64,000 nt of DNA from an uncultured Alphaproteobacteria bacterium. Lineage in GTDB: Bacteria; Pseudomonadota; Alphaproteobacteria; Caulobacterales; Hyphomonadaceae. The stretch's first letter is position 1; each line of letters opens with the position of its first letter. The position numbers and the translations under genes were made by a program. Shown piece after piece: positions 409 to 15,798 of the stretch. A model generated the notes under the pieces. That model saw only the letters and a list, made by a program, of their open reading frames with translations. It had not been told where the DNA came from and searched no databases. The DNA lies in contig CAIMMO010000230.1 in NCBI GenBank assembly GCA_903842595.1, positions 47,590 through 111,589 on the forward strand. Direction: 5' to 3'.

Positions 409-1467
409 ATGCACCTCATAGCCCCCAACCAGACCTTCATGCTCCTCGCAATGCTGGCGGCGATTGCTTCGGCTCCTGCCGTTCATGCTCAGGAGGGCGA
501 GACTGCGAATGTCAGCCAGCAAGGTGTCATCGAGCTGACGCTGGATCACGCGGAATCCGGCGAGGATGTGCTCGCAGCCACGATCAACTATGGCCTTGCA
601 GTCCGCCTCTCCGAAGGCTGGACGCTCCAGATGGATGCTGTCCTCGAGCCCGTCGTCGATCCGGTTGGTGACGAAGCCTTCGAGGGGGAGGACGCGTTCA
701 TCGAAACGCTGTCGCTTCAGTATGCCGGCGAGTCCTTCACGGTCTATGGCGGCAAGATCAATCCTGCCTTCGGTAGCGCGGCTGATGTCGCGCCGGGCCT
801 CTACGGCGTCGAGGCCGGCGAAGCCTACCAGATCACCGAGGCGATCGGAATCGGCGGCGACATTTCGTTGACGTCGCTTATGAACCTCGATGGCGAGCAT
901 GTGCTGTCTGCCGCCCTGTTCGCGGCCGACCGCACCTTCCTGTCTGGCTCGTTGGGCGGCTTGCGCGAAGAACTGGACCTCGCCGCTGGCGGCCTCGCCA
1001 ACACGAAAGAGTTTAAGTCGGTCGCCGTCAGCCTCGATGGCGTGCTGGCAAACGGTATCGGTTACAGCCTTGGCCACCGCCAGCTCGCAACCGACACGCC
1101 GGGCGAGGCTGACGAAACTGCAACCGTGCTCGGCGTCAGCTATGGCTGGCCGGAAGACAGCGGTGTCGACCTGTCGCTGATGGCTGAGGTCGTCGCCTCG
1201 CGCAATGCAGATGGCGTCGATGGCGCCAATCGCGACTTCTACACGGCCGGCGGCACACTCGGTCTTGGTGACTGGTTCGTCAATGCGATCGCATCGGGCT
1301 GGCACGAGAACGCAGCAGCGGGCGACCTCGATGTCGGCAAGCTTGAAGTGTCTGTCGGCCGCGCGCTGGCCGAAGCCCTGGTGCTGGAAGTCGGCGTGCA
1401 GGACGTACGCGAAGCTGGAATATCGAGCACCGTGATCGGCGCCCGCCTCGCCTGGGAATTCGGTTGA
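409..1467 (+). CDS. outer-membrane porin-like beta-barrel protein
   Basis: Signal peptide (MLLAMLAAIASAPAVHAQ), alternating beta-strand pattern, 'VYGGKINPAFG' porin-like motif, terminal aromatic (AWEFG). Confidence 0.6.
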   Translation: MHLIAPNQTFMLLAMLAAIASAPAVHAQEGETANVSQQGVIELTLDHAESGEDVLAATINYGLAVRLSEGWTLQMDAVLEPVVDPVGDEAFEGEDAFIETLSLQYAGESFTVYGGKINPAFGSAADVAPGLYGVEAGEAYQITEAIGIGGDISLTSLMNLDGEHVLSAALFAADRTFLSGSLGGLREELDLAAGGLANTKEFKSVAVSLDGVLANGIGYSLGHRQLATDTPGEADETATVLGVSYGWPEDSGVDLSLMAEVVASRNADGVDGANRDFYTAGGTLGLGDWFVNAIASGWHENAAAGDLDVGKLEVSVGRALAEALVLEVGVQDVREAGISSTVIGARLAWEFG

Positions 1468-1473
1468 GCGCTT

Positions 1474-1791
1474 CTAGCGAACCGAAACGATGATCGTGCT
1501 GGCGCCTGCGAGAGCTGGCGTCAGTTGCGTTCTGGCATAGGTCATCCGGCGCGACACCGGCGTTGTCGTCTCGGCAATCATCTTGCCGGAAGCATCATAC
1601 CCAGCCATCAAGATTGCGCGGGGTGATAGGCCGCGGGCCGATCCCGGAACGCCCTGATCAAGCCTTACCAGCACGTCGCCATCAGCAATACTGGCACGAA
1701 TCGCAGGCATCGAAGCCTTGACGACCGGATCTGCAACAGCGGGGGCCGCCAGCATGGCGGCGGCGGCGAAGCGGGCGAGAACGAGGCGCAT
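1474..1791 (-). CDS. small secreted hypothetical protein
   Basis: MRLVLARFAAAAMLAAPAVADP signal peptide; internal start chosen within the 151-aa ORF. Confidence 0.55.
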   Translation of the reverse strand: MRLVLARFAAAAMLAAPAVADPVVKASMPAIRASIADGDVLVRLDQGVPGSARGLSPRAILMAGYDASGKMIAETTTPVSRRMTYARTQLTPALAGASTIIVSVR

Positions 1792-1983
1792 ACCGAGAGC
1801 TCCAGACGTGCCACGTGCGAACGATGCTCGTAGCGTTCCGATCCTGCACCGCAAGGACGAGGCCAACAACCCTGTCTGCGTTAATCGTAATGCTGGCGGG
1901 GCTAACGGCGGGGTGACCGGTGGGCGCAACTGTCCCGGATTCGGCCATGTTCCCGGATGGGGCCATGTTGACGTGCGTCCGCG

Positions 1984-3516
1984 TCACGTTGTGACCTTGG
2001 CGAGCGTCCAGACCGGCGCGCCCGCGGGGCCGCTTACAACCGCGCCGCGAACCCCAACGGCGGTCCTTTGCATCGACGTGAGCTGGCCGATCGTTTCCGT
2101 GTCGGTCGCCGGCGCACTTGCCATCACGCGGCCGCCATCCGGCGTGCGGGCGATGATGATTGCGTCGAACGGAGCGCCATCGCGCGCATAGCGCACTGTG
2201 TAGGTCTCGATCACCCCCGTACCGACATAGCCCTCGCGCAAGGGCGGCGTCGGCCCTCGTGCAGCATCTGCAATGCCCTGCGCGGAATAGTCCGTCGCCA
2301 TCGGCGCGGGCGGCGCCGCCGTGCTCAGCACAAGCGCGTGGTGCTTGTTGACATAGCCGCCCTGTCCGTACAGCAGGCCAAGCTCGCCCGCATGGGCGCG
2401 CAATGCCCGAACCATCGCGGCAATGGCGTGGCTCATGTAGTTGTTCAAAGGTCCACCGAAGAAGGTCAGCCCGCCAGCAACAGTCGGCGGATGCAGCGCC
2501 GGATCAAGCCCCAGCGTCCTGAGCGCCATCTTCGGAACGACAGGAAAACAGCTGTACAGCTCCAGATGCCGAAAGCGCCTCGCGTCTCCCCCGGCTATGA
2601 CGACAGACGTGTCCAGCACCGCCGATTGCGCCGTCGAGTGATCATAGCGGTCGCGATGGAGGTAGTCCTCCGGCTCGATGGCGTTTGCGCCACCCCAGAT
2701 GTGGATCAGCTTCTCTTCCGCAATTCCCATCTCGCGCGCCCGCGCAAGGCTCATGACGATCACCGCCGCAGACTGGTTCACGGCCGGGTTTGCGACCATC
2801 AGTTTGGGGTAGGGCCAGTTGATCAGACGGTTGTCGGCGCTGATTGTCCCGATCGCGTCTGCATCGGGCGCAGAGCGTATCCACGCATAAGGATTACCCG
2901 CCGCCACGGCAGCATAGCGCGCCCAGAGTTCGGCAGATTCCCGCATCCCCTCGGCTGGCGTCTGTCCCCAGGCGGCCTGTGCTGCGACTTCGTAGAAGGG
3001 ATAGACCTGCGCAGGGTTCATCACGCCGAGCTGCTTTGCGATGGGACTCATCGCGAAGCGGCTCGAGGGAAAGCGCACTGTCTCGTCCTTTGCCGCAGCA
3101 GGCGTCCATGGCGGCGCAACGCCTGACTTCTCGGCCTGCCCGCGCGCATGGCTGGCTTCGCCGCCTACGACTGCCGCGACCACGTCCTCCCCCAGGGCGA
3201 TACGCTTGGCCGCCTCGTGAACCAGCCTTACTGGCGTCTCGCCGCCCATACTGGCGTTGACCGCCTCGGCCGGGGCAATGCCCAGCTTCTGTGCAAGCAG
3301 CTGTACCGGATCCTTGTAGGGCCAGCTGACAAGCCCGATCAGACTCAGCAACCCAACCCCGCCGAGCACGCGCACGCCAGCGTCCGTCTCGCACGCCTTA
3401 AGCGCCTCGACCATCAGATCGACCGGCTCACGCGCTTCTTCCGGGCGTTTTGGCCTGTCGATATGCTCTCCGACCGCGGCGATGACAGGAATGGCTTGCG
3501 CAGGGTTTGCCGTCAT
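1984..3516 (-). CDS. thiolase-like acetyltransferase with additional C-terminal domain
   Basis: 510 aa; thiolase-fold N-terminus (IPVIAAVGEHIDRP), 'GLTFFGGPLNNYMSHAIAAMV', C-terminal 'REGYVGTGVIETYTVRY' extension. Confidence 0.75.
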   Translation of the reverse strand: MTANPAQAIPVIAAVGEHIDRPKRPEEAREPVDLMVEALKACETDAGVRVLGGVGLLSLIGLVSWPYKDPVQLLAQKLGIAPAEAVNASMGGETPVRLVHEAAKRIALGEDVVAAVVGGEASHARGQAEKSGVAPPWTPAAAKDETVRFPSSRFAMSPIAKQLGVMNPAQVYPFYEVAAQAAWGQTPAEGMRESAELWARYAAVAAGNPYAWIRSAPDADAIGTISADNRLINWPYPKLMVANPAVNQSAAVIVMSLARAREMGIAEEKLIHIWGGANAIEPEDYLHRDRYDHSTAQSAVLDTSVVIAGGDARRFRHLELYSCFPVVPKMALRTLGLDPALHPPTVAGGLTFFGGPLNNYMSHAIAAMVRALRAHAGELGLLYGQGGYVNKHHALVLSTAAPPAPMATDYSAQGIADAARGPTPPLREGYVGTGVIETYTVRYARDGAPFDAIIIARTPDGGRVMASAPATDTETIGQLTSMQRTAVGVRGAVVSGPAGAPVWTLAKVTT

Positions 3517-3714
3517 CTAGCGCTGGTCTCCATCGTCGCATGCGCGCCAATCCGCACAGCTTGCCGCAACCGTAGGAAATTCACACGCCTTGCGCCAGTT
3601 TCCGCCACGACAAGCGACAGCATGTCCGTTTTCATCTGCCTGCCTGCCGGTTGGCAAAAGTGCATCGGCGTGTCCAATCTCGTCTGCGTCCATGAACCTG
3701 CAGCAGGAGCTACC

Positions 3715-4974
<1,260 letters not shown>

Positions 4975-5314
4975 TTGACGGCGCATATGTCTGAGCCGGC
5001 TGCCGGCACGGGCAGGTCATGACCCGTCTCGCTACAGTCTCGTCGCAGAGATCTGAGGCGGCAACCCGCGCCGTCCGCAGGGGCTGCCTGGCATCAGGAT
5101 CCGTTTCCGTCTGAATGCCCCGGGCCACGGGCTCCGGCAGTGGTCTGTAACTGCCTGGTATCAGGACTGCGACAGGGCAGGACAAGCAGCTGTTACATGC
5201 TTGTCATCAAGCTGTTGCGTAGCTGTCTGACAGCCTCCTGATAGCGGAATCGGGCGTTTCGTCGTCAGCTGGCCGCAAACAGAGAAGACAATTGGCATTG
5301 CAACAGAGCTGCAC

Positions 5315-7387
5315 ATGAACAGGACTTCCAGAGCAATGGCGGCCATGCGCAAGGGCGCCTTGGTTGCACTTCTGGCGATTGCAGCATGCAACCCGGCAAC
5401 GGAGCGGGGGCCGGGGCAGGTTGTGACCCAGGTCGTCGCAAAGGCACAGACCGTGGCAAGCGCAACCGGAACGGTATCGGCCGGCGCAATTGTCCTTGCA
5501 GGTGACGCACTGAGAATTGTCGGGGCCACGGCCCTTGGCGGGCTTGAGGTCTACGATGCAACCGGCACGCGCTTGAGTTCAACACCCGCAGGAGAGGTCG
5601 CAGGCGTCGATATCGCCTATGGCTACGACATGGGCGGATCCTCGGCCACGATCGTCGCGGCTGTCGATATCACCCAGAACGCGTTACGGCTGTTCCAGCT
5701 CCAGGGCGAAGAGCTGACCGAAGTCGGCGCGCGTGCCGTGCCCCTGGGGTTTGCGGCAGAGAATGTCTGCCTCTTCAGCAGCAATCTTGACGGCGCTCTC
5801 TACGCGTTCGTGATTGGCGACGGCGGTGAGATCGACCAGCAACTTATCTACACAGATGCATCGGGCCGGCTGGACGCGCGCCAGGTGCGAAGGCTCAACG
5901 TGATGTCGACGATCAAGCAGTGTGTCGTCGATGACATTTCAGCGAAGGTATACGTCTCCGAGGAAACTGTTGGGATCTGGCGCTTCAATGCCAATCCCGA
6001 AGCCTTCGCTGCGCCGGATCTCGTGGACAGCCCGCGCTTCGGCAAGATCAGGGAAGAGGTCGGCGGACTTGCCCTGCACGACGGGGGCGACGGCGCTCGC
6101 TGGCTAATCGCGTCCGATGCATCGGCAGGTCGACTGAACCTCTACGATCGCGACAGGAACGACGCCTATATCGGTTCCGTCACGGTCTCAGCGACAGCAG
6201 GCGGTGAGGCTATTGACGAACCCGGGCCGCTCTACGGGCTGAGCCATGCCGTGCAGGATTTCCCAAACGGTGTTCTGCTGGTCGCCGATGAAGATGGTTC
6301 AAACTTCAAGGCGCTTTCGTTTTCCGACATCGCCGCGGGCCTCAAGATTTTCGCCGGTGAACCAAGCGATCCACGCGTCGTCAGCGATCCATCTGTTCCG
6401 ACGGTCACTGCCACGGTTGAGACCGTCGCGGTCCCGAGCTTCGGCGACGCGGCGGACGATCCTGCAATCTGGGCAAATCCCGCAAATCCCGGGCAGAGCC
6501 TCGTCGTCGCAACCGACAAGAAGGGCGGCCTTTTCGTCTACGACATGCAGGGCAAGGTCGTTCAGGGGCTTCGCGACGGCAAGATGAACAATGTCGACCT
6601 TCGCGAAGGTTTCCAGCTTGGCGGCAAGAGCGTTGTCCTCGTCACAGCCAGCAACCGGACCGACAGGACTATCGCAATCTATCGTCTCGACACGGTGTCG
6701 CGCCAGCTGATCGACGTCGCTGACGGTCCGCAACAGACCGAGCTTGAGGACCCGTACGGCCTTTGCATGTATCGCGATAAGGGTGGCAAGACGTTCGCCT
6801 TCGTGAACGGCGACGACACGCGCATGCGGCAGTGGGAGCTCGTTGACGCCGGAAACGGCCGTGTGCGCGCCAACTTTGTTCGCGAGTTCGCCTTTGAAAG
6901 CCAGACAGAAGGCTGTGTTGCCGATGATGCGACAGGCCAGCTTATCGTCGACGAGGAAGATGTCGGCATCTGGAGTCTCAGCGCAAGGCCCGACGGGGGC
7001 AAGGAGATGAGATCGGTGCAGAAGGTCGTCGACAGTCCGGCAATCAAGGACGACCTTGAAGGCGTCGGCCTCTACGATCTTGGGAATGGGCGCGGCTATC
7101 TCGTCGTGTCCAGCCAGGGCAACGACACCTACGCAGTCTATCGCCGCGAAGGCGCGCAGGCGTATCTCGGCTCCTTCGCCGTGGCGGCAGACCCGATCCG
7201 CGGCATCGACGGGATTTCCGAGACAGACGGTCTCGAAGTCTCCAGTCGCAATCTAGGCCCGGGATTCGAGTTTGGCGCGATGATTGCGCAGGATGGCCGC
7301 AACGTGCTGCCGGTAGAAAATCAGAACTACAAATATGTCCCCTGGCAGTCGATCGCCGAAGCGCTGAAGCTCGAAATGAGGCGATAA
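5315..7387 (+). CDS. 3-phytase, beta-propeller, tandem-domain lipoprotein
   Basis: Lipobox LLAIAAC; FGDAADDPAIWANP, ATDKKGGLFVYDMQG, NNVDLR; two homologous halves. Confidence 0.85.
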   Translation: MNRTSRAMAAMRKGALVALLAIAACNPATERGPGQVVTQVVAKAQTVASATGTVSAGAIVLAGDALRIVGATALGGLEVYDATGTRLSSTPAGEVAGVDIAYGYDMGGSSATIVAAVDITQNALRLFQLQGEELTEVGARAVPLGFAAENVCLFSSNLDGALYAFVIGDGGEIDQQLIYTDASGRLDARQVRRLNVMSTIKQCVVDDISAKVYVSEETVGIWRFNANPEAFAAPDLVDSPRFGKIREEVGGLALHDGGDGARWLIASDASAGRLNLYDRDRNDAYIGSVTVSATAGGEAIDEPGPLYGLSHAVQDFPNGVLLVADEDGSNFKALSFSDIAAGLKIFAGEPSDPRVVSDPSVPTVTATVETVAVPSFGDAADDPAIWANPANPGQSLVVATDKKGGLFVYDMQGKVVQGLRDGKMNNVDLREGFQLGGKSVVLVTASNRTDRTIAIYRLDTVSRQLIDVADGPQQTELEDPYGLCMYRDKGGKTFAFVNGDDTRMRQWELVDAGNGRVRANFVREFAFESQTEGCVADDATGQLIVDEEDVGIWSLSARPDGGKEMRSVQKVVDSPAIKDDLEGVGLYDLGNGRGYLVVSSQGNDTYAVYRREGAQAYLGSFAVAADPIRGIDGISETDGLEVSSRNLGPGFEFGAMIAQDGRNVLPVENQNYKYVPWQSIAEALKLEMRR

Positions 7388-7678
7388 CGAGTCTCGCCCT
7401 TGATGCCCGAACACCGTCACAACCAAGCTCCCCCATCAAAGCCAGCAACTCGCGAGCGGCGTTCTCGGAGATACCGGGCCATCTCCGATCCAAGGGGTCT
7501 CGAGCGCAGGCTCTGGCAGCATTGCCCGACCTCGCATCATCCCCACATGGGGGATCACAAGGCAGACGCCGTTGCGCCAGGAGCCCATTGTGCCGATGTG
7601 AGTCTTGATCGGCGGCAAGACTGGAGGCCCATATTCTGAAAGAATGGACACAGTCGCGGTTGGCGGTGCGGTGGCCAA

Positions 7679-8368
7679 GTGAGTGTCACTGTCAGCTACG
7701 ATGCGGAAGGGAAGACAGCGCATTTTGCCGTGGTGGATACGGGCGAGGGCATTGCCCCCCAGATCGTCGACAAGGTTTTCGACCAGTTCTTTCAGGGTGA
7801 CTCGTCGTCGACGCGCCGGCACGGCGGCTCGGGACTTGGCCTTGCTATTTCGAAGCAGCTTGTCGGCATGATGGGAGGCAAAATCGGCGTCGTCAGCGAG
7901 CCTGGCGTGGGAAGCACATTTCAGTTCAGTGTCGACGCCCCCGTCGCGCCGTTGCCTGTTATCACGCAAAGTGAACCGCGAACGGCTCCGGTCGAGGGTC
8001 TCCGTATCCTGATCGCGGAGGACAATCCCGCCATGCAACAGATTCTCTCCGCACTGCTGGAGGCGGGCGGGCACCAGCTGAAAATTGTAGCTGATGGTCG
8101 CGACGCGGTCGCCATGGCTGCGAGCGACACGTTTGATGTCATCCTTATGGGCGTGATGATGCCGGTCATGGACGGGCCAACCGCCACGCAACGGATACGT
8201 GAGCTTGGCGGACGGGCGGGAGGAGTCCCGATCATCGCCCTCACTGCCAACGCGCTTGTGGGCGATCGTGATCGATATCTGGAGGTCGGCATGACGGACT
8301 ATCTCGCAAAGCCGATCGACGTCGCCGCGTCGTTTCAGGTTCTGGGCCGTATTGTTCCAAGAGCCTGA
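7679..8368 (+). pseudogene. hybrid sensor histidine kinase remnant (partial HATPase + receiver domain; no HisKA)
   Basis: DTGEGI...GGSGLGLAISKQLVGMMGGKIGVVSEPGVGSTFQF then REC domain; upstream in-frame stop at 7637-7639; receiver Asp replaced (DVILMGVMMPVMDG). Confidence 0.75.
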
Positions 8369-8820
8369 CGCCCCTCTGTGGTTGACAACAGCTCATACCG
8401 AGGCGGAAAAGCCCGAATTGGGTGAGCGATCTCAGCCTGCTTTGGCCCGAACCCCAGTCAGCACGAGTTAAGCATAAGTCTGTCTTGTTGCGGCTTGCAG
8501 TCTTGTCTGCAGGCGGGCCCCATTTCGTATTTTTCAGCTCTCGCAGCAGGGGTATCGACCCGACCAGGTCCTGCGCGCAAAGATGGAAATCACACGGGGT
8601 TTTGTACCGGGCGCGACATAAACAAGACAATTCTCGGCTGATTTACGAGATTGCGATGTGTGTATGGCAAGAAGACGAATGAGAAATTCCATCTTTTACT
8701 GTCAGTCCGCGAATAAATGCGCAGTGTAGACCGTTGTGTGGTGAAGGCTAAGACTTGGTGCGCGCTGCCTGGCGTAAGCCGGCCCGGGCCAGGTGATGTG
8801 TTAAGCGTGGGAGTTCATTC

Positions 8821-9897
8821 ATGTCGTCAGCGGTGGGGCTTTCGTCCCAGATCGACAGCGCGCACCGTTCGTTCGCAACGCGCATTGCAGATCTCGGTGT
8901 GGCCGCCAGCCTCGACAGCAATGCCAGGCCCTCGCCGGGAGACCTCTGCCTTGCCCGTGTGACCAGGCTCGGCCAGCATCGCCATATCGAGCTTGTGACC
9001 GGCCGCCGCGCCCAACTGAATGTCGACGATACCGTCATCCTTGCCTTCGGAAACCGGTATGCGACCGACCAATACGAGGCGCTTGTTCCACCCACACTCG
9101 ATTCCTGCCACCTCGTGGCGGCTGGCGGCATCGCTTCCATGGCGGTCACACGTCATGTGGACATGAAGCCGCCCACGGTCATCCAGCCGCTCGGAATCCT
9201 CCGCGATGCGAACGGCGCCGTGCTGAACCTGTCACGGTGGGGCTGGCCGGGCGTGGGCGCGCCAATGAGCGCGAGCAGCCCGCCGCATATGGTTGTCGTC
9301 GCGGGGGCCAGCATGAATGCAGGCAAGACCACGCTCTGCGCAAATGTCATCCGTACCCTGCGCAAATGCGGATTGAACGTCGCCGCACTGAAGCTCACCG
9401 GAACTGGATCCGGTGGCGATCTGTGGAAGTACCTGGATGCAGGCGCCATCGAGGCGATGGACTTCGGCAATGTCGGGCTCGCGTCAACAGCGGGCATGGA
9501 AGTTCCTGCGCTCGACGCCGCAATCGGACGCCTGTGTGCTGCTGTCTCGCCGCGCGCTGACATCATCGTGGCCGAGCTGGCAGACGGAATTCTTCAGCGC
9601 GAGACGTCGCAGCTGCTGCAGTCATCCAACCTGCGCGCGCGCATCGGATCCCTCCTGTTCGCCGGTTCGGATCCGCTTGGAACCATGGCGGGCGTGGAGC
9701 TGCTCGGCAGGTGGGGGCTTGACGTGTCGGCGGTATCCGGATTGCTCGTAACCTCGCCGCTCGCGGTGCGCGAGTTTTCTTCCCACTGCAACACGCCGGT
9801 GATTTTCGACGACGACGCTGACCCGCAGGCAATTGCCGCCCACCTGTTCGCCCCGGCGATCGCACAGCCGGTGAAGAAACATGCTGCGCAGCGCTGA
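8821..9897 (+). CDS. P-loop NTPase, BioD/DUF1611-like, with distinct N-terminal domain
   Basis: VVVAGASMNAGKTTLCANVIRTLRKCGLNVAALKLTGTG Walker A; first gene of a co-directional cluster. Confidence 0.7.
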   Translation: MSSAVGLSSQIDSAHRSFATRIADLGVAASLDSNARPSPGDLCLARVTRLGQHRHIELVTGRRAQLNVDDTVILAFGNRYATDQYEALVPPTLDSCHLVAAGGIASMAVTRHVDMKPPTVIQPLGILRDANGAVLNLSRWGWPGVGAPMSASSPPHMVVVAGASMNAGKTTLCANVIRTLRKCGLNVAALKLTGTGSGGDLWKYLDAGAIEAMDFGNVGLASTAGMEVPALDAAIGRLCAAVSPRADIIVAELADGILQRETSQLLQSSNLRARIGSLLFAGSDPLGTMAGVELLGRWGLDVSAVSGLLVTSPLAVREFSSHCNTPVIFDDDADPQAIAAHLFAPAIAQPVKKHAAQR

Positions 9898-10711
9898 GAA
9901 GCTGGCCTTGCGTGGATCGGGGTCACTCCAGTGCGCCTCAGGACTCGCAGCCCATCGCGCCGGCGCAGGCGAACTCGACTATTTCGCCTACGTACCGCGC
10001 AATGCATCGTCGACATCGCAGCTGATGGTCACGGTGCACGGGATCGAGCGCCTCGCTTTGCAGCATGCTGTGCGCTTCTCCGCGCTGGCTGAAACCGCAG
10101 GCTTTGTTGTGCTTGCGCCGCTCTTCAGCAAGTCTCGTATGCCGCGATATCAACGCGCAGAGCGCGGGCCGAACGGCGATAGTCCGATCAAGGCCTTCGA
10201 ACTGACGATCGAACATTTCTGTCAGACCAGCGGCCTGCAGACGGGGCCCATTCGTTTGTTTGGCTATTCCGGCGGTGCGCAGTTTGCCATGCGGCAGGTT
10301 CTGCTCGGTTCGCTGCCGGTCGCCCGTCTCGCGCTTGCTGCGCCGGGCTGGTATTCAATGCCGGACGAAGCGCTCGAGTTTCCTTACGGCGTCGCTGCGA
10401 GCAACGCGAGTGAAGGCCGCCAGCCCGAGCTTGCCCGGCTTCTGGCGACGCCGACAATGGTGCTGGTTGGCGGCGGCGACACACGGCGGGACAGCTCGCT
10501 CAATCGCCAGAGGATCGTCGAAGAGACGCAGGGCCGCACGCGCCTTGAACGTGCGCAGCGCTGGCACGCGGCGATGGGTGCGGCGGCCGACATCCGTGGC
10601 ATGCAACGCAGGATCGAACTGCAGGTGCTGCCCGGGGCGCAACATGACTTCAACGAAAACATGCAATCTTTTGGACTTGGCGACTTCGTCGCCAAATGGC
10701 TTATCACGTAG
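9881..10711 (+). CDS. alpha/beta hydrolase
   Basis: LFGYSGGAQFA nucleophile elbow (GxSxG), VTVHG, late 'GAQHDF' histidine; overlaps previous gene. Confidence 0.75.
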   Translation: MLRSAEKLALRGSGSLQCASGLAAHRAGAGELDYFAYVPRNASSTSQLMVTVHGIERLALQHAVRFSALAETAGFVVLAPLFSKSRMPRYQRAERGPNGDSPIKAFELTIEHFCQTSGLQTGPIRLFGYSGGAQFAMRQVLLGSLPVARLALAAPGWYSMPDEALEFPYGVAASNASEGRQPELARLLATPTMVLVGGGDTRRDSSLNRQRIVEETQGRTRLERAQRWHAAMGAAADIRGMQRRIELQVLPGAQHDFNENMQSFGLGDFVAKWLIT

Positions 10712-11911
10712 GTGGAGAGTACAATGACGGGCACGTGGGCAAAGGCGCTGGTCGCCAGCGTTGGTTTCGCGATCGGCGCAGCCGGCATGGCGCATGCACA
10801 AGACAATGAAGTCGACACCGATTTCGACTCCGATGGTTTCTCCCTTGAGTCGGGAGACCTAGAGCTGAATCTCGGTGGCAGGCTCCACGTCGATACCGTC
10901 TCAATCGAAAGCGATCTCATCCAGTTCCAGGATGACACCGATATTCGTCGCCTGCGTCTGGACGCTACGCTCGATCTCGGGAAGGACTGGCGCATCAAGC
11001 TCGATGGCGATGTTGGCGGCCTCAGCCCCGGCATCTACAATGCCTGGATTGCCTATGACGGCATCAAGGACTGGGAGTTCAAGTTCGGCAACTTCATCGC
11101 GCCGTTCAACGGCGAGAACATGATGAGCTCGAACAATATGAAGTTCATCGAGCGCGGACTGCCATCAGAACTTTCTCCCAACTTCCTGCTTGGCGCGACA
11201 GCTGCCTATGAGGGCAAGAACTGGTCGGTCACCGGTGGCTACTTCACCAACCCGATCGAGGACGAGCAGCTGACCAATCGTGACGACGGCAACAGCGTCG
11301 TAGTCCGCGGCGTCTTCGCCCCGATCGAGAAGCGCCGCGAAGTTCTGCATTTTGCGGTCGCAGTTGAGCGTCGCGAACTTGACACCGGGGCGGCGTCACG
11401 TGTGCGCGCCGTCCCCGAATTCGCCCTGACCCGTCAGGCATTGCTCGACACGGCCACGCTTGCCGGGGTCGATGCCTACACAAACCTGAACATCGAAGCC
11501 GCCTACATGAACGGGCCCTTCCTCGTTCAGGCCCAGCAGGTCATGCGCTCGAACGACGCGCCGCTCCTTGGTGATCCGGAGTTCAAGGGCATGTCGGTCC
11601 AGGCTGCCTGGGTCCTGACCGGCGAGCGGCAGCGCTACAGCGTCGGTGGCGGAACGTTCGGCGAAATCCGTCCTGACAGGGACAATGCGTTTGGCGCCTG
11701 GGAAATTGCAGCCCGCTACAGCACGCTGGATCTTGAGGATGGCGGCGTGCTCGGCGGCGAACAGAAGAACTGGACTGTTGGCGTCAACTGGTACGTCAAT
11801 CGGAACGTGCGGCTGTCCGCCAATTATGTCGACGCCAAGGCTGAACCAAACCGTCTCGGCTTCGCAGACAATCCGTCGGCCGTCATGGGGCGTTTGCAGG
11901 TTGCCTTCTAG
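10712..11911 (+). CDS. phosphate-selective porin (OprO/OprP)-like outer-membrane protein
   Basis: Signal peptide ending AHAQ, GGRLHVDTV, RRLRLDATLDLGKDWRIKLDGD, C-terminal GRLQVAF. Confidence 0.75.
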   Translation: MESTMTGTWAKALVASVGFAIGAAGMAHAQDNEVDTDFDSDGFSLESGDLELNLGGRLHVDTVSIESDLIQFQDDTDIRRLRLDATLDLGKDWRIKLDGDVGGLSPGIYNAWIAYDGIKDWEFKFGNFIAPFNGENMMSSNNMKFIERGLPSELSPNFLLGATAAYEGKNWSVTGGYFTNPIEDEQLTNRDDGNSVVVRGVFAPIEKRREVLHFAVAVERRELDTGAASRVRAVPEFALTRQALLDTATLAGVDAYTNLNIEAAYMNGPFLVQAQQVMRSNDAPLLGDPEFKGMSVQAAWVLTGERQRYSVGGGTFGEIRPDRDNAFGAWEIAARYSTLDLEDGGVLGGEQKNWTVGVNWYVNRNVRLSANYVDAKAEPNRLGFADNPSAVMGRLQVAF

Positions 11912-11986
11912 CAAGATCCTGGTCGAAACGAAGTTGCGCGGCCGCAGGTTCGCCTGTCGGCCGTGCGTACTTTCCGGGGGCGCGTG

Positions 11987-13741
11987 ATGGCCGCCAACGA
12001 TCAGGCAAAACCAAAGGCGCCGCTGTTCCTCAGCCCGCGTGGCGAGGCGGCCAAGACCTGGCGTCTCCCAATCCTGCTGCGAGGCCGGCGCAAGCTGAGG
12101 CTTTGGCTGCTGTTTGTCATCGGCCTGGTACAGTCGCTGCTCGCTGTTGTTGTCGCACTAAGCGTCAAGCACGCCTTCGACCAGTTGATGGGTCAGGGGC
12201 AAAACGCTTCCGAGGGAGCAGTAACTGCATCCGTCGCGCTTGGCGCCCTTGCCGTGGGAGCGATATTGCGCTGGCGTGAGTTTCTCGTCGCCGAGAGGCT
12301 GGCGCAGAGCTACGTTCATGCGGTCCGCGTCGTCGTCTTCCGCCATGCAATACGTCTGGGCGAAGCTGGCCTTGCACAGACATCGCGAAGCGCCGTCCTG
12401 CTTCGCTTCACCGGCGACCTCAGCGCCTTGCGGCTCTGGATAAGCCGAGGCCTCGCGCGCGGCCTTGTCGCCATGGCAAGCATTGCCATCACGCTGACGG
12501 CTCTTCTGGTGGTCGACCCCTTCATCGGTCTTGCAGTTGCAGCGTCCGTTGCGCTCACGGGGCTCTCGGCGCTCGCGCTTGGTCCTTCGCTCGACAGGGC
12601 GACACGCCGCGTCCGGGCTCGACGCACGCACATGCTCAAGCATGCCCAGGAAAGGCTCAGCCGCATCAATGTCGTCGATACGCTTGGCGATGCCGGGCGA
12701 GAAAGGCGCCTGCTCGCGAAGAAGAGCAACGCTCTCGCTGCCGCGTCCATCGACCGTGCGAGCGTGATCGGCATCCTGCGGTCCGTTGGTGAAGCAGGCG
12801 CGGCCGTTTCAAGCCTTGGCGCCTTCCTTGTCGGAGCGGTGCTTGCCGGTTTCTCGCTCGTGACCCCCGGCGCCGTTGTCGCCGCTATGCTGCTCGCGGG
12901 CTTGCTGGGCCCGCGTCTGCACGACGCCACGCGAGCCTTCGAATACTGGACAGGCGCAAAGGTATCGATCGAGAAGCAGCAGAAATTCCTGGCGCTTCGC
13001 CCGATTGGCCGTCGCCGCGGGTCATCGGGAAGTTCCAAGCGCCTCCCCCAGGCCGATGGCCGTCTGCATTTGCGCAAGGTCAGCTATCGGGACGTGATCA
13101 AGGGCGTCAATCTGGCCATTGGGCCCGGTGATCGTCACTGGTTGCCGAGTGGATCAAACGGCGAAGCGATCACGCTCCTGCAACTTGCGGCGGGTGTTCT
13201 TCAGCCGACCGAGGGCAGGGTGACGCTGGACGAGGTCAATCTGCGTGACCTTCACAGGCGTGATACCCGCCGGCATGTCGCGCTTGTCTCGGGCGACTTC
13301 CCGCTGTTCGAAGGTCCGCTGCGGGATGCCCTGACTTACGGAATTGAAGCAACGCGGGCCGCGAGCCTGGAGACATTTGTCGACGGTAACGCCGTCGAGG
13401 GCCTGTTCGCAGATCTACCGAACGGTCTCGACCATGTCGTGCTCGATGGAGATCGTCGCATCACCGTTGCGCGCTGTCTTGTCTTCGGGCTCCTTCGTGC
13501 CCGGCTGGCAGGCGCACGCGTCATCCTGATTGATCAGGCTGACACCGCGCTCGGCGATGTCGAGATGGCTGCCATCGAACGACTCCTGCGTGGCTTTGAC
13601 GGCGCTGTTCTGTGGTGCTCGCAAGGCAAGACAGCGCCCTCGGGATTCGATCGGGTAGAAATGGGGCAACACCCATCTCAAGCCCGCGGGGGAGTGCTTA
13701 CGTCTCTCCTGAATCGCCGAAAGCAAAGCGGAGTTGCCTGA
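11987..13741 (+). CDS. ABC exporter-like protein with degenerate nucleotide-binding domain
   Basis: N-terminal multi-TM exporter domain and C-terminal ABC-like domain; Walker A GSNGEAIT, Walker B ILIDQAD, no LSGGQ. Confidence 0.75.
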   Translation: MAANDQAKPKAPLFLSPRGEAAKTWRLPILLRGRRKLRLWLLFVIGLVQSLLAVVVALSVKHAFDQLMGQGQNASEGAVTASVALGALAVGAILRWREFLVAERLAQSYVHAVRVVVFRHAIRLGEAGLAQTSRSAVLLRFTGDLSALRLWISRGLARGLVAMASIAITLTALLVVDPFIGLAVAASVALTGLSALALGPSLDRATRRVRARRTHMLKHAQERLSRINVVDTLGDAGRERRLLAKKSNALAAASIDRASVIGILRSVGEAGAAVSSLGAFLVGAVLAGFSLVTPGAVVAAMLLAGLLGPRLHDATRAFEYWTGAKVSIEKQQKFLALRPIGRRRGSSGSSKRLPQADGRLHLRKVSYRDVIKGVNLAIGPGDRHWLPSGSNGEAITLLQLAAGVLQPTEGRVTLDEVNLRDLHRRDTRRHVALVSGDFPLFEGPLRDALTYGIEATRAASLETFVDGNAVEGLFADLPNGLDHVVLDGDRRITVARCLVFGLLRARLAGARVILIDQADTALGDVEMAAIERLLRGFDGAVLWCSQGKTAPSGFDRVEMGQHPSQARGGVLTSLLNRRKQSGVA

Positions 13742-14326
13742 TTGAGATACTTCCGTCTGATCGAGTCCTGTGTGCCCACACAGCCCTTCCTGTCGGAAAT
13801 TGCATCCGTGCGCGAGGCTTGGTCCTCTGCCACGGGCCGTCAGGAAAAAATCGCCGTCCAGCGCGAGGCCATGGCGATTCCTTTGCGCGGCGTGCGAAAA
13901 TCGGCCATCGGTGAACTAAAGCGCCGCGACGTCCACAAATCCCGGTGGACGTACACGTCGGAGCCCTACGTGCACGCCCGCAGTTTTCTGAAGGCGCTCG
14001 CCGCTCGGCAGGGTGCTGAGCTTGGCCGCGCCAAGCTGGTGATGCTGCCCGCAGGGCGCCGCGTTTACCCTCACATTGATCGTGGCGAATACTACCGGGT
14101 CCGAGACCGCTACCACCTCGTGATCAGGTCGACGGCCGGTTCATGGCTCCGTGCGGGTGACGAGGAGGTCACGATGCAGGAAGGCGAACTCTGGTGGTTC
14201 GACAACAAGGCGATGCATGAGGCCTGGAACCATGGCGACCAGGACCGGCTTCACCTGATCTTCGACATGTTGAGCGCCACGGGTGCTGCGATGGTGGCGC
14301 GCCGTGAAGACATGCAGCCGGCTTGA
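13742..14326 (+). CDS. aspartyl/asparaginyl beta-hydroxylase family protein
   Basis: 194 aa; HIDRGEYYRVRDRYHLVIRS ... GELWWFDNKAMHEAWNHGDQDRLHLIFD; starts immediately after the ABC gene. Confidence 0.8.
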   Translation: MRYFRLIESCVPTQPFLSEIASVREAWSSATGRQEKIAVQREAMAIPLRGVRKSAIGELKRRDVHKSRWTYTSEPYVHARSFLKALAARQGAELGRAKLVMLPAGRRVYPHIDRGEYYRVRDRYHLVIRSTAGSWLRAGDEEVTMQEGELWWFDNKAMHEAWNHGDQDRLHLIFDMLSATGAAMVARREDMQPA

Positions 14327-14386
14327 CCTGCTGGAGGTGAGTTCCAAGGTGAGCCGTGTTCTGACTTTGGCGCTCGCGCTGTTGCG

Positions 14387-15382
14387 TCAGCGCAGGTTTC
14401 TTCGCGCAATCTCGGAACCGAGCGCGTCGCCCGACTGCCACGCAAGTTCGATGCGGGGACCCAGGCGCCAGTCGCCACATACGCCAATTCCCAAATCCTC
14501 GTTCCAGCCAAACGGCGTCCCGGCAGAAACCTGCACCTGCGCATAGCGCCAGCGATGGGCAGACGCGTGAACTGGCTGCACATCGATGTGGGTGATACTC
14601 GCAAATGCACGCGCTAGCCTGTCTGCGACCCACTCGGCAGATTGCTCGATGTTTTCCTCCGACCAGTCCGGCTTTGCATGAAGAACCCAACAGGAGTACG
14701 CGCCGCTATTGCCCTTCATTGCAGCCACCCACGCAAGCGGAGACGAGTCGCTTACGCGGGCTGCTTCGAAGTCAACCCGGATCGGGGATGAGAACGCAAG
14801 CATGGTCGCCCAGCAAGGTGATGTGCGTGCAGCTTGCGCCTCCCGCGCCAATGCTGGTGCGATCGGCAAAAGCAGGTCTGCTGCCTGTTCGGCTGGCGCC
14901 GCAATCACGATGTAGTCGAAAGGTCCGGTCGTTGCGCCTGTTGAAAGAGAAAGCGCCCATCCCCCTGCATCCCGCGTGCACGCTCTGACCTGGCAAGAGG
15001 TCTCGACGTCGAGCCCATCCGCCAGTGCTTTCGCCATCGCGTTCATTCCTGGCGCGCCGACAAATCGCGGCTCGTCGGGAAGATGCGAGCGCGCAGTATC
15101 GGAGATGCCAGTAACGGTATTCGGATATCGCGCGACGGCCCCGGCTGCGACAAGGCGATCCACCTCGATGCGAAAGGCTGGATCCCGGGCCGTGAAGTAC
15201 TGGGCGCCATGATCGAACCTCAGATCTGATTCACCGACCTGTATGCGTCGCGTGGCCGCTCTGCCGCCAACACCCCGACCCTTGTCGTAGATTTTTGCTT
15301 GATGCCCGGACGCGACGAGCCGTCTTGCACAGGCAAGGCCGGCAATGCCTGCACCAACAACCGCGACATGTCTGATGACCAT
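14387..15382 (-). CDS. FAD/NAD-dependent amine oxidase / renalase-like oxidoreductase
   Basis: VAVVGAGIAGLACARRL ... YDKGRGVGGRAATRR. Confidence 0.85.
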   Translation of the reverse strand: MVIRHVAVVGAGIAGLACARRLVASGHQAKIYDKGRGVGGRAATRRIQVGESDLRFDHGAQYFTARDPAFRIEVDRLVAAGAVARYPNTVTGISDTARSHLPDEPRFVGAPGMNAMAKALADGLDVETSCQVRACTRDAGGWALSLSTGATTGPFDYIVIAAPAEQAADLLLPIAPALAREAQAARTSPCWATMLAFSSPIRVDFEAARVSDSSPLAWVAAMKGNSGAYSCWVLHAKPDWSEENIEQSAEWVADRLARAFASITHIDVQPVHASAHRWRYAQVQVSAGTPFGWNEDLGIGVCGDWRLGPRIELAWQSGDALGSEIARRNLR

Positions 15383-15444
15383 GATGGTGACCCGGGAATA
15401 CGAAACAGATTGCGTTGGCGGTTCGTGCGCACCATCTAGAGCCC

Positions 15445-15798
15445 ATGACAAGGCCCCGGCTTACAGTGTGGTTCGACGGAGGATGTCCCCTCTGCCGGCG
15501 TGAGATTTCATTGATCAGGCGTCTCGATTCGCGCGGCGCGATTCAGTTCGTGGATGTGGCCAGCGAGCTGGGCGATTGCCCTATTGATCGCGCTGAACTC
15601 CTCGCCAGGTTCCATGCCAGGGAAGAGGGCGGTCCGCTGCTTTCGGGTGCGGCGGCGTTCGCTGCAATGTGGAGAAGCGTCCCTCTGCTTCGCCCGTTTG
15701 GACGACTCGCGAGGGGCGGCCCGGCGCTATGGGTTCTCGAACGGCTCTACGTCCTGTTCCTGCGTGTTCGTCCCACCTTGCAGAAGCTTGCACGCTGA
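15445..15798 (+). CDS. thiol-disulfide oxidoreductase DCC family (DUF393)
   Basis: VWFDGGCPLCRREISLIRR DxxCPLC motif. Confidence 0.9.
   Translation: MTRPRLTVWFDGGCPLCRREISLIRRLDSRGAIQFVDVASELGDCPIDRAELLARFHAREEGGPLLSGAAAFAAMWRSVPLLRPFGRLARGGPALWVLERLYVLFLRVRPTLQKLAR

Follow-up and report, generated by a model that had tools for sequence, protein, structure and literature searches.

Within the window, the 64-kb stretch of DNA from an uncultured member of the Hyphomonadaceae analyzed here, lies a putative operon of five genes, which we call A to E (Table 1). An earlier note, made from the letters alone, had seen in it five packed, co-directional genes acting as one functional unit, and this picture holds. 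In an open reading frame check of the window all five frames were open, on the same strand and tightly packed through overlaps or short gaps, with A and B overlapping by 17 bp and E beginning at a TTG (13742) immediately 3′ of the TGA stop codon of D. The frame of C opens at GTG 10712, which the note took for its start; ATG 10724 is the likelier position because it is preceded by GGAGAG and agrees with the orthologue from the same genus. The frame of D opens at GTG 11963, and comparison with its same-genus orthologue places the likely start at ATG 11987, as had been proposed. Since the same gene families cluster in dozens of other genomes, the grouping is not a product of chance.

Table 1 Features of the operon, its surroundings in the window and the related block on contig C181 of the same genome
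Feature	Sequence	Position	Strand	Basis or remark
Tail of hybrid histidine kinase/response regulator (HATPase and receiver), probable remnant	Window	7679..8368	+	Pfam
Operon leader, 452 bp	Window	8369..8820	+	Gap between open reading frames
A: predicted P-loop enzyme, SIMIBI-type, MobB/BioD/DUF1611-like, own N-terminal domain	Window	8821..9897	+	
B: alpha/beta hydrolase, PahZ1/LpqC homologue	Window	9881..10711	+	Ser130, Asp200, His255 conserved
C: outer-membrane porin of the Porin_O_P family	Window	10724..11911	+	Pfam 195 bits; OprP/OprO in PDB
D: ATP-binding cassette (ABC) exporter-type membrane protein, decayed ATPase domain	Window	11987..13741	+	
E: aspartyl/asparaginyl beta-hydroxylase-type protein	Window	13742..14326	+	Conserved HxD, distal His/Arg
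Weak terminator-like hairpin behind E	Window	14376..14393	+	Number of such sites close to the shuffled mean
Subtilase	C181	138-1760		
Extracytoplasmic function (ECF) sigma factor	C181	about 1736-2265		
Anti-sigma factor	C181	2272-3006		
Barrel protein	C181	3096-4010		
Asp-rich secreted repeat protein, two near-copies of SDDDIGADGLKRRGDGSIDDDQPGVA	C181	within 4104-4652		
E-like protein without HxD (L096)	C181	within 4656-5369		

Linkage and distribution of the gene set

To place the operon in context, 200 genomes of the order and 385 of the class were searched for A and E, and the surroundings of A were compared across these genomes and plasmids, the loci being picked by A. In the close A family, 34 of 36 loci link D to A, the exceptions being L054 and L065, where no D was found next to A. 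A and D thus form the core of the system, accompanied repeatedly by B, E and an outer-membrane protein in several arrangements: A-B-C-D in the window, L043 and L088, A-D-B-C in L040-L042, L045-L047 and L074, E-B-A-D-kinase-regulator in L062, L066 and L068, and B-A-D on plasmids of Rhodobacterales. A planctomycete carries A-D. Whether homologues stay together elsewhere had been suggested as a check on the proposed unit; they do so in many bacteria, and the proposal stands.

Within the order, A is present in 12 of the 200 genomes; five have a close orthologue of E (E value below 1e-60), and each of these five also carries A. Among the 385 genomes of the class, E orthologues below 1e-80 are likewise found only where A is (5/5). 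The confinement of E to A-bearing genomes has p values of 3e-7 (order) and 9e-8 (second test), which like all p values given here are descriptive because the loci were picked by A, kin loci are non-independent and the rule for Asp-rich proteins introduced below was set after examples. Around twelve loci additionally link an ECF sigma factor, an anti-sigma factor and an S8 subtilase to the system, and others a kinase/regulator pair. Among named relatives, the nearest found was a metagenome-assembled genome of the Hyphomonadaceae whose A is 95% identical. D occurs in two of the 15 genomes of the genus (that of the window and one other) and several copies of the system are plasmid-borne, a patchy presence that fits horizontal movement between bacteria.

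Searches of the open-access literature on DUF1611, or on Asp-rich repeats with a hydroxylase, an ECF factor or a subtilase, returned nothing on the A-E set, in keeping with the earlier remark that the set was not recognized as a known pathway. Known anti-phage defence was also considered and rejected, none of the five proteins having a PADLOC match.

The five proteins and the loss of ATPase motifs in D

The membrane part of D is an ABC membrane domain (PF00664, 75.7 bits against a cut-off of 28), so that its previous description as ABC-exporter-like stands for this half of the protein; the ATPase half has lost its motifs. The match to PF00005 remains below the cut-off (19.1 vs 25 bits), and Walker A, signature and Walker B are absent, the respective sites reading PSGSNGEAIT, ITVAR and ILIDQAD. 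Most relatives of D have normal ATPase motifs, for example GPNGAGKST in L040. Besides the window D, about ten copies are dead or eroded in these motifs, among the dead ones that of L088 from the same genus. Mapped onto a tree built from the membrane part, the intact/dead label has to change four times, each time forced by well-supported branches, and the D family has, as read from these sequences, lost its ATPase motifs at least four times.

This loss has taken place in a protein that is still maintained. Between the window and L088, the membrane part of D has a non-synonymous rate (dN) of 0.26 against a synonymous rate (dS) of 2.05, the latter near saturation, and D is therefore kept by purifying selection; in the decayed domain, for which dS is not computable, third positions change most (0.71 vs 0.35 and 0.33). 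The open frame and the rates in the membrane part led us to reject D as a pseudogene. Dead D and absence of E show an association that is suggestive, not significant (p 0.10). A second D-like protein that might act as a heterodimer partner was not found in this genome at an E value of 1e-15, a search outside which unrelated ABC proteins fall. With its ATPase motifs absent, ATP-driven export is not to be assumed for the window D. A precedent exists in SbmA, an ABC-type membrane domain that works without an ATPase and is proton-driven (PMC13316013).

B is alone among the five in having no Pfam match over the cut-off, yet its assignment as an alpha/beta hydrolase gains in precision. It is homologous to the poly(aspartic acid) hydrolase PahZ1 (profile E values of 1.4e-30 to 6ve6 and 1.2e-32 to 9o7u) and also to LpqC (3d0k), and its putative catalytic residues Ser130, Asp200 and His255 are invariant in 12 homologues. 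PahZ1 cuts beta-Asp amide bonds (PMC4456602), and the kinship of B with it, as judged from profile comparison, appears to be new here. The porin assignment of C holds (Porin_O_P, 195.2 bits against 20.9), and in the PDB it is related to Porin P and Porin O (OprP/OprO). E likewise proved to be what it was taken for, an Asp/Asn beta-hydroxylase-type protein: it passes the Asp_Arg_Hydrox cut-off (65.9 vs 22.6 bits), HxD, H159 and R169 are invariant across seven E orthologues, and AspH is the nearest to it among solved structures. Its scores against OlsC (21.6 of 450 bits, 9.8e-5) and LpxO (18.1 of 500 bits, 1.1e-3) fall far under the cut-offs of both.

Of the two names given previously to A, BioD-like and DUF1611-like, the P-loop and a BioD-like fold survive; the BioD model TIGR00347 is missed (13.8 vs 83.3 bits), and PF07755 (DUF1611) has no match on the window A, although it matches 14 of 17 A homologues with E values of 2.5e-4 to 0.1, below or near the cut-off. 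The only Pfam cut-off that A passes, and barely, is that of MobB (26.8 vs 26.6 bits), and the corresponding TIGR00176 is again missed (27.8 vs 76.2 bits). All curated equivalog cut-offs are missed, and neither an NCBIfam equivalog nor a PADLOC family names the protein. Its P-loop is intact (GxxMNxGKT), with Lys191 and Thr193-Gly194-Thr195 invariant in all 17 aligned homologues. A is predicted to be a SIMIBI-type nucleotide-binding protein with its own N-terminal domain, because a confident structural model (predicted local distance difference test, 93), built on an alignment without the plasmid loci, best matches the FtsY/SRP GTPases, BioD and HypB.

Distant relatives of A, in SAR11-sized and other genomes, sit 5′ of argC-argB, the A-like gene standing directly before this pair in L079, L080, L082, L084 and L085. 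ArgJ was not found in genomes with this arrangement (that of L082 left out), and the ArgA model matches the kinase half only. These A-like genes are candidates for a new type of N-acylglutamate synthase, and the context as a whole suggests action on glutamate. We take the DUF1611 family to include the D-Glu N-acetyltransferase DgcN. A further distant homologue lies on a Priestia megaterium plasmid (L059, 8893-9954) in a phosphonate-like cluster with genes of the ornithine carbamoyltransferase, ATP-grasp, thiamine-diphosphate and phosphoenolpyruvate (PEP)-mutase families.

Asp-rich secreted proteins and the genomic surroundings

Secreted proteins rich in aspartate recur near the system. By a rule of at least 13 Asp in 40 residues, set once examples were known, such a protein is present in 17 of 33 core loci and in none of 12 distant-A loci (p 0.0013, the related loci not being independent). 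Of the 19 control loci scored, one satisfied the rule, and this was contig C181 of the window's own genome. A long acidic segment is found in all 14 linked subtilases and is Asp-rich in nearly all of them, and small Asp-rich genes with signal-peptide-like starts adjoin the system in L052, L056, L069, L070, L071 and L088, two of the encoded proteins having sub-threshold similarity to EF-hands. A check in trans revealed Asp-rich subtilase loci in genomes G531, G523, G134, G192 and G028.

A second association comes from a sister clade of E that occurs mostly in genomes without A. Here the E gene lies directly 3′ of a (Gly-Asp)n gene that is complete in L089, L090 and L091, and in L093 and L094 the contig starts inside an apparent (Gly-Asp)n repeat upstream of E; the sixth member, L092, has no (Gly-Asp)n gene beside it. 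A conserved protein of 500-600 residues without a Pfam match is encoded near sister-clade E in L090, L091, L093 and L094. E-like proteins that lack HxD, apparently pseudoenzymes, stand beside an Asp-rich secreted protein on C181 and in L088 (5363-5983).

The window genome is a draft of 277 contigs, and the window itself has no match to the linked subtilases. In L088 a block of the C181 type (677-5983) is followed by A-B-C-D; the sigma/subtilase block and the operon therefore adjoin in L088 and lie apart in the window's assembly. A search for an ECF promoter motif common to the upstream regions of the A operon and the C181 block gave nothing consistent. The earlier remark that no precursor peptide is evident is correct for the operon and its leader, while relatives and C181 do carry candidate substrates. 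These candidates, the dead D, the kinship of B with a poly(Asp) hydrolase and the upstream regulator had all escaped the earlier note.

This regulator is the hybrid histidine kinase whose tail is separated from A by the leader, put previously at about 450 bp. A close relative has at the same place an 892-residue kinase frame (PAS, HisKA, HATPase) whose 3′ end runs into Ns, and some 2.4 kb of the kinase found in L038 is absent from the window at 7678/7684, either through a real deletion or through an assembly fault. A leader RNA was rejected, 8369-8820 having zero Rfam matches, as was a sigma-70 promoter, the single site in the region being at chance level; the leaders of the window and L088 have no short conserved peptide in common. 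Further upstream lies a phytase gene (5315-7387) with two stretches matched to phytase in Pfam. Downstream, positions 14387-15798 hold a flavin adenine dinucleotide (FAD)-dependent oxidoreductase and a DCC1-like gene, and a DUF393 gene is also found near B-A-D in Paracoccus albus.

A proposed function and its alternatives

These observations are still best framed, as suggested originally, by a system that transports and modifies a small molecule or peptide. Among the possible functions we favour one in which the set alters, trims and transports an Asp-rich polypeptide or an acidic peptide, a proposal that we put forward tentatively and as somewhat short of probable. The substrate, all of the reactions, the direction of transport and its energy source are what we infer here. 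The system would be under its own regulator, either the ECF sigma/anti-sigma pair with its secreted subtilase or a histidine kinase/response regulator. E would hydroxylate Asp residues in the cytoplasm, B would cut Asp-Asp amide bonds and A would carry out an ATP-dependent change at the amino or carboxyl group of an acidic residue, after which D would take the product over the inner membrane and the porin C provide passage through the outer membrane. As the window copy of D can hardly be ATP-driven, it may act as a secondary carrier driven in the manner of SbmA, for example by protons. That the Asp-rich proteins may be the substrates is suggested by genomic association. A more specific form of this proposal, in which a bacterial system hydroxylates and processes secreted Asp-rich, Ca2+-binding-like repeat proteins with a transporter, descended from an ABC exporter, in which ATP has repeatedly been exchanged for a different source of energy inside a single gene family, seems to us unlikely.

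Several observations weigh against a role in handling acidic polypeptides. An Asp-rich subtilase locus is also present in G005, which has no A match, and the enrichment of subtilases with A is weak (p 0.075). In around half of the core loci the flanks examined hold no Asp-rich gene, and the 64-kb window itself scores 0 by the rule. With their Sec-type signal peptides, the Asp-rich proteins need neither D nor C for export. Moreover, the link of A to acidic residues comes from its distant relatives only, PahZ1 enzymes are secreted and B shows no signal peptide, and LpqC relatives of B are annotated as polyester hydrolases.

Alternatively, the set may be a small-molecule pathway in which A builds and E hydroxylates an N-modified Asp or Glu derivative that B tailors, D exports and C releases, the Asp-rich proteins being bystanders of the regulator block. 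The argC-argB context of distant A relatives, with its missing ArgJ and half-matched ArgA, the plasmid cluster with ornithine carbamoyltransferase, ATP-grasp and PEP-mutase genes, and the resemblance of the A fold to BioD all speak for such a pathway. However, the set holds no other dedicated biosynthetic gene, sister-clade E stands behind (Gly-Asp)n genes and dead D copies suit ATP-driven export poorly, and we regard this alternative as doubtful.

Quite unlikely, in our view, is the reverse direction of transport, whereby acidic peptides, for example cut by the subtilase, would enter through C and an SbmA-like importer D, be cleaved by B in the cytoplasm and be handled further by A and E. The apparent lack of a signal peptide in B, the relation of C to the anion-selective porins OprP/OprO, the likeness of an ATPase-less D to the SbmA situation and the linked secreted Asp-rich subtilases would all accord with import; D is nevertheless of exporter type, intact in most relatives, and has no Pfam match to the SbmA/BacA family. 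We consider it very unlikely that the set modifies an envelope lipid that D flips, with E hydroxylating an acyl chain as OlsC and LpxO do, B acting as an esterase and the sigma factor answering envelope stress: the weak matches of E to these two enzymes and of D to MsbA (9.7e-21), together with the ECF sigma/anti-sigma linkage, are countered by the scores of E far under both cut-offs, its proximity to AspH and the lack of an acyltransferase in the set. Least probable is that the window copy is a decaying remnant, as its lost D motifs, the kinase tail, the regulatory block lying elsewhere and the HxD-less E-like protein on C181 might imply, given five open frames, the key residues kept in E and constraint not only on the membrane part of D but on A, B and C too.

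Should the proposed handling of acidic polypeptides be correct, a widespread set of orphan genes in Alphaproteobacteria, plasmid copies included, would gain a function, and bacterial AspH-type enzymes a candidate protein substrate. The D family also allows an ABC exporter's loss of ATP drive to be traced at least four times. The parts belong to known families. To our knowledge, there is no earlier description of how they are combined, of the link to Asp-rich proteins or of the ATPase motifs being lost repeatedly.

Comparison with known systems places the set beside several of them. Clusters for the maturation of ribosomally synthesized and post-translationally modified peptides similarly combine a modifying enzyme, a hydrolase and a transporter, with a small repeat-rich secreted protein in the relatives of our system; they differ in that the window operon has no precursor gene and the candidate substrates carry Sec-type signal peptides. 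SbmA-like transporters would resemble D in mode of working only, D retaining a decayed ATPase domain and having no SbmA/BacA match listed in Pfam. With the P-loop proteins DUF1611/DgcN, MobB and BioD, A has the P-loop domain and fold in common, whereas its N-terminal domain is its own and it reaches no curated equivalog cut-off. E shares the Asp_Arg_Hydrox domain, HxD and the distal His/Arg with the AspH-type beta-hydroxylases (human AspH, OlsC and LpxO), but is short, stands alone and scores far below OlsC and LpxO. Finally, B has in common with PahZ1 and LpqC the catalytic Ser/Asp/His, the GWYxxPD...PYG region and fold-level sequence similarity, and is distinguished from them by the absence of a signal peptide and by being encoded together with A, D, C and E.

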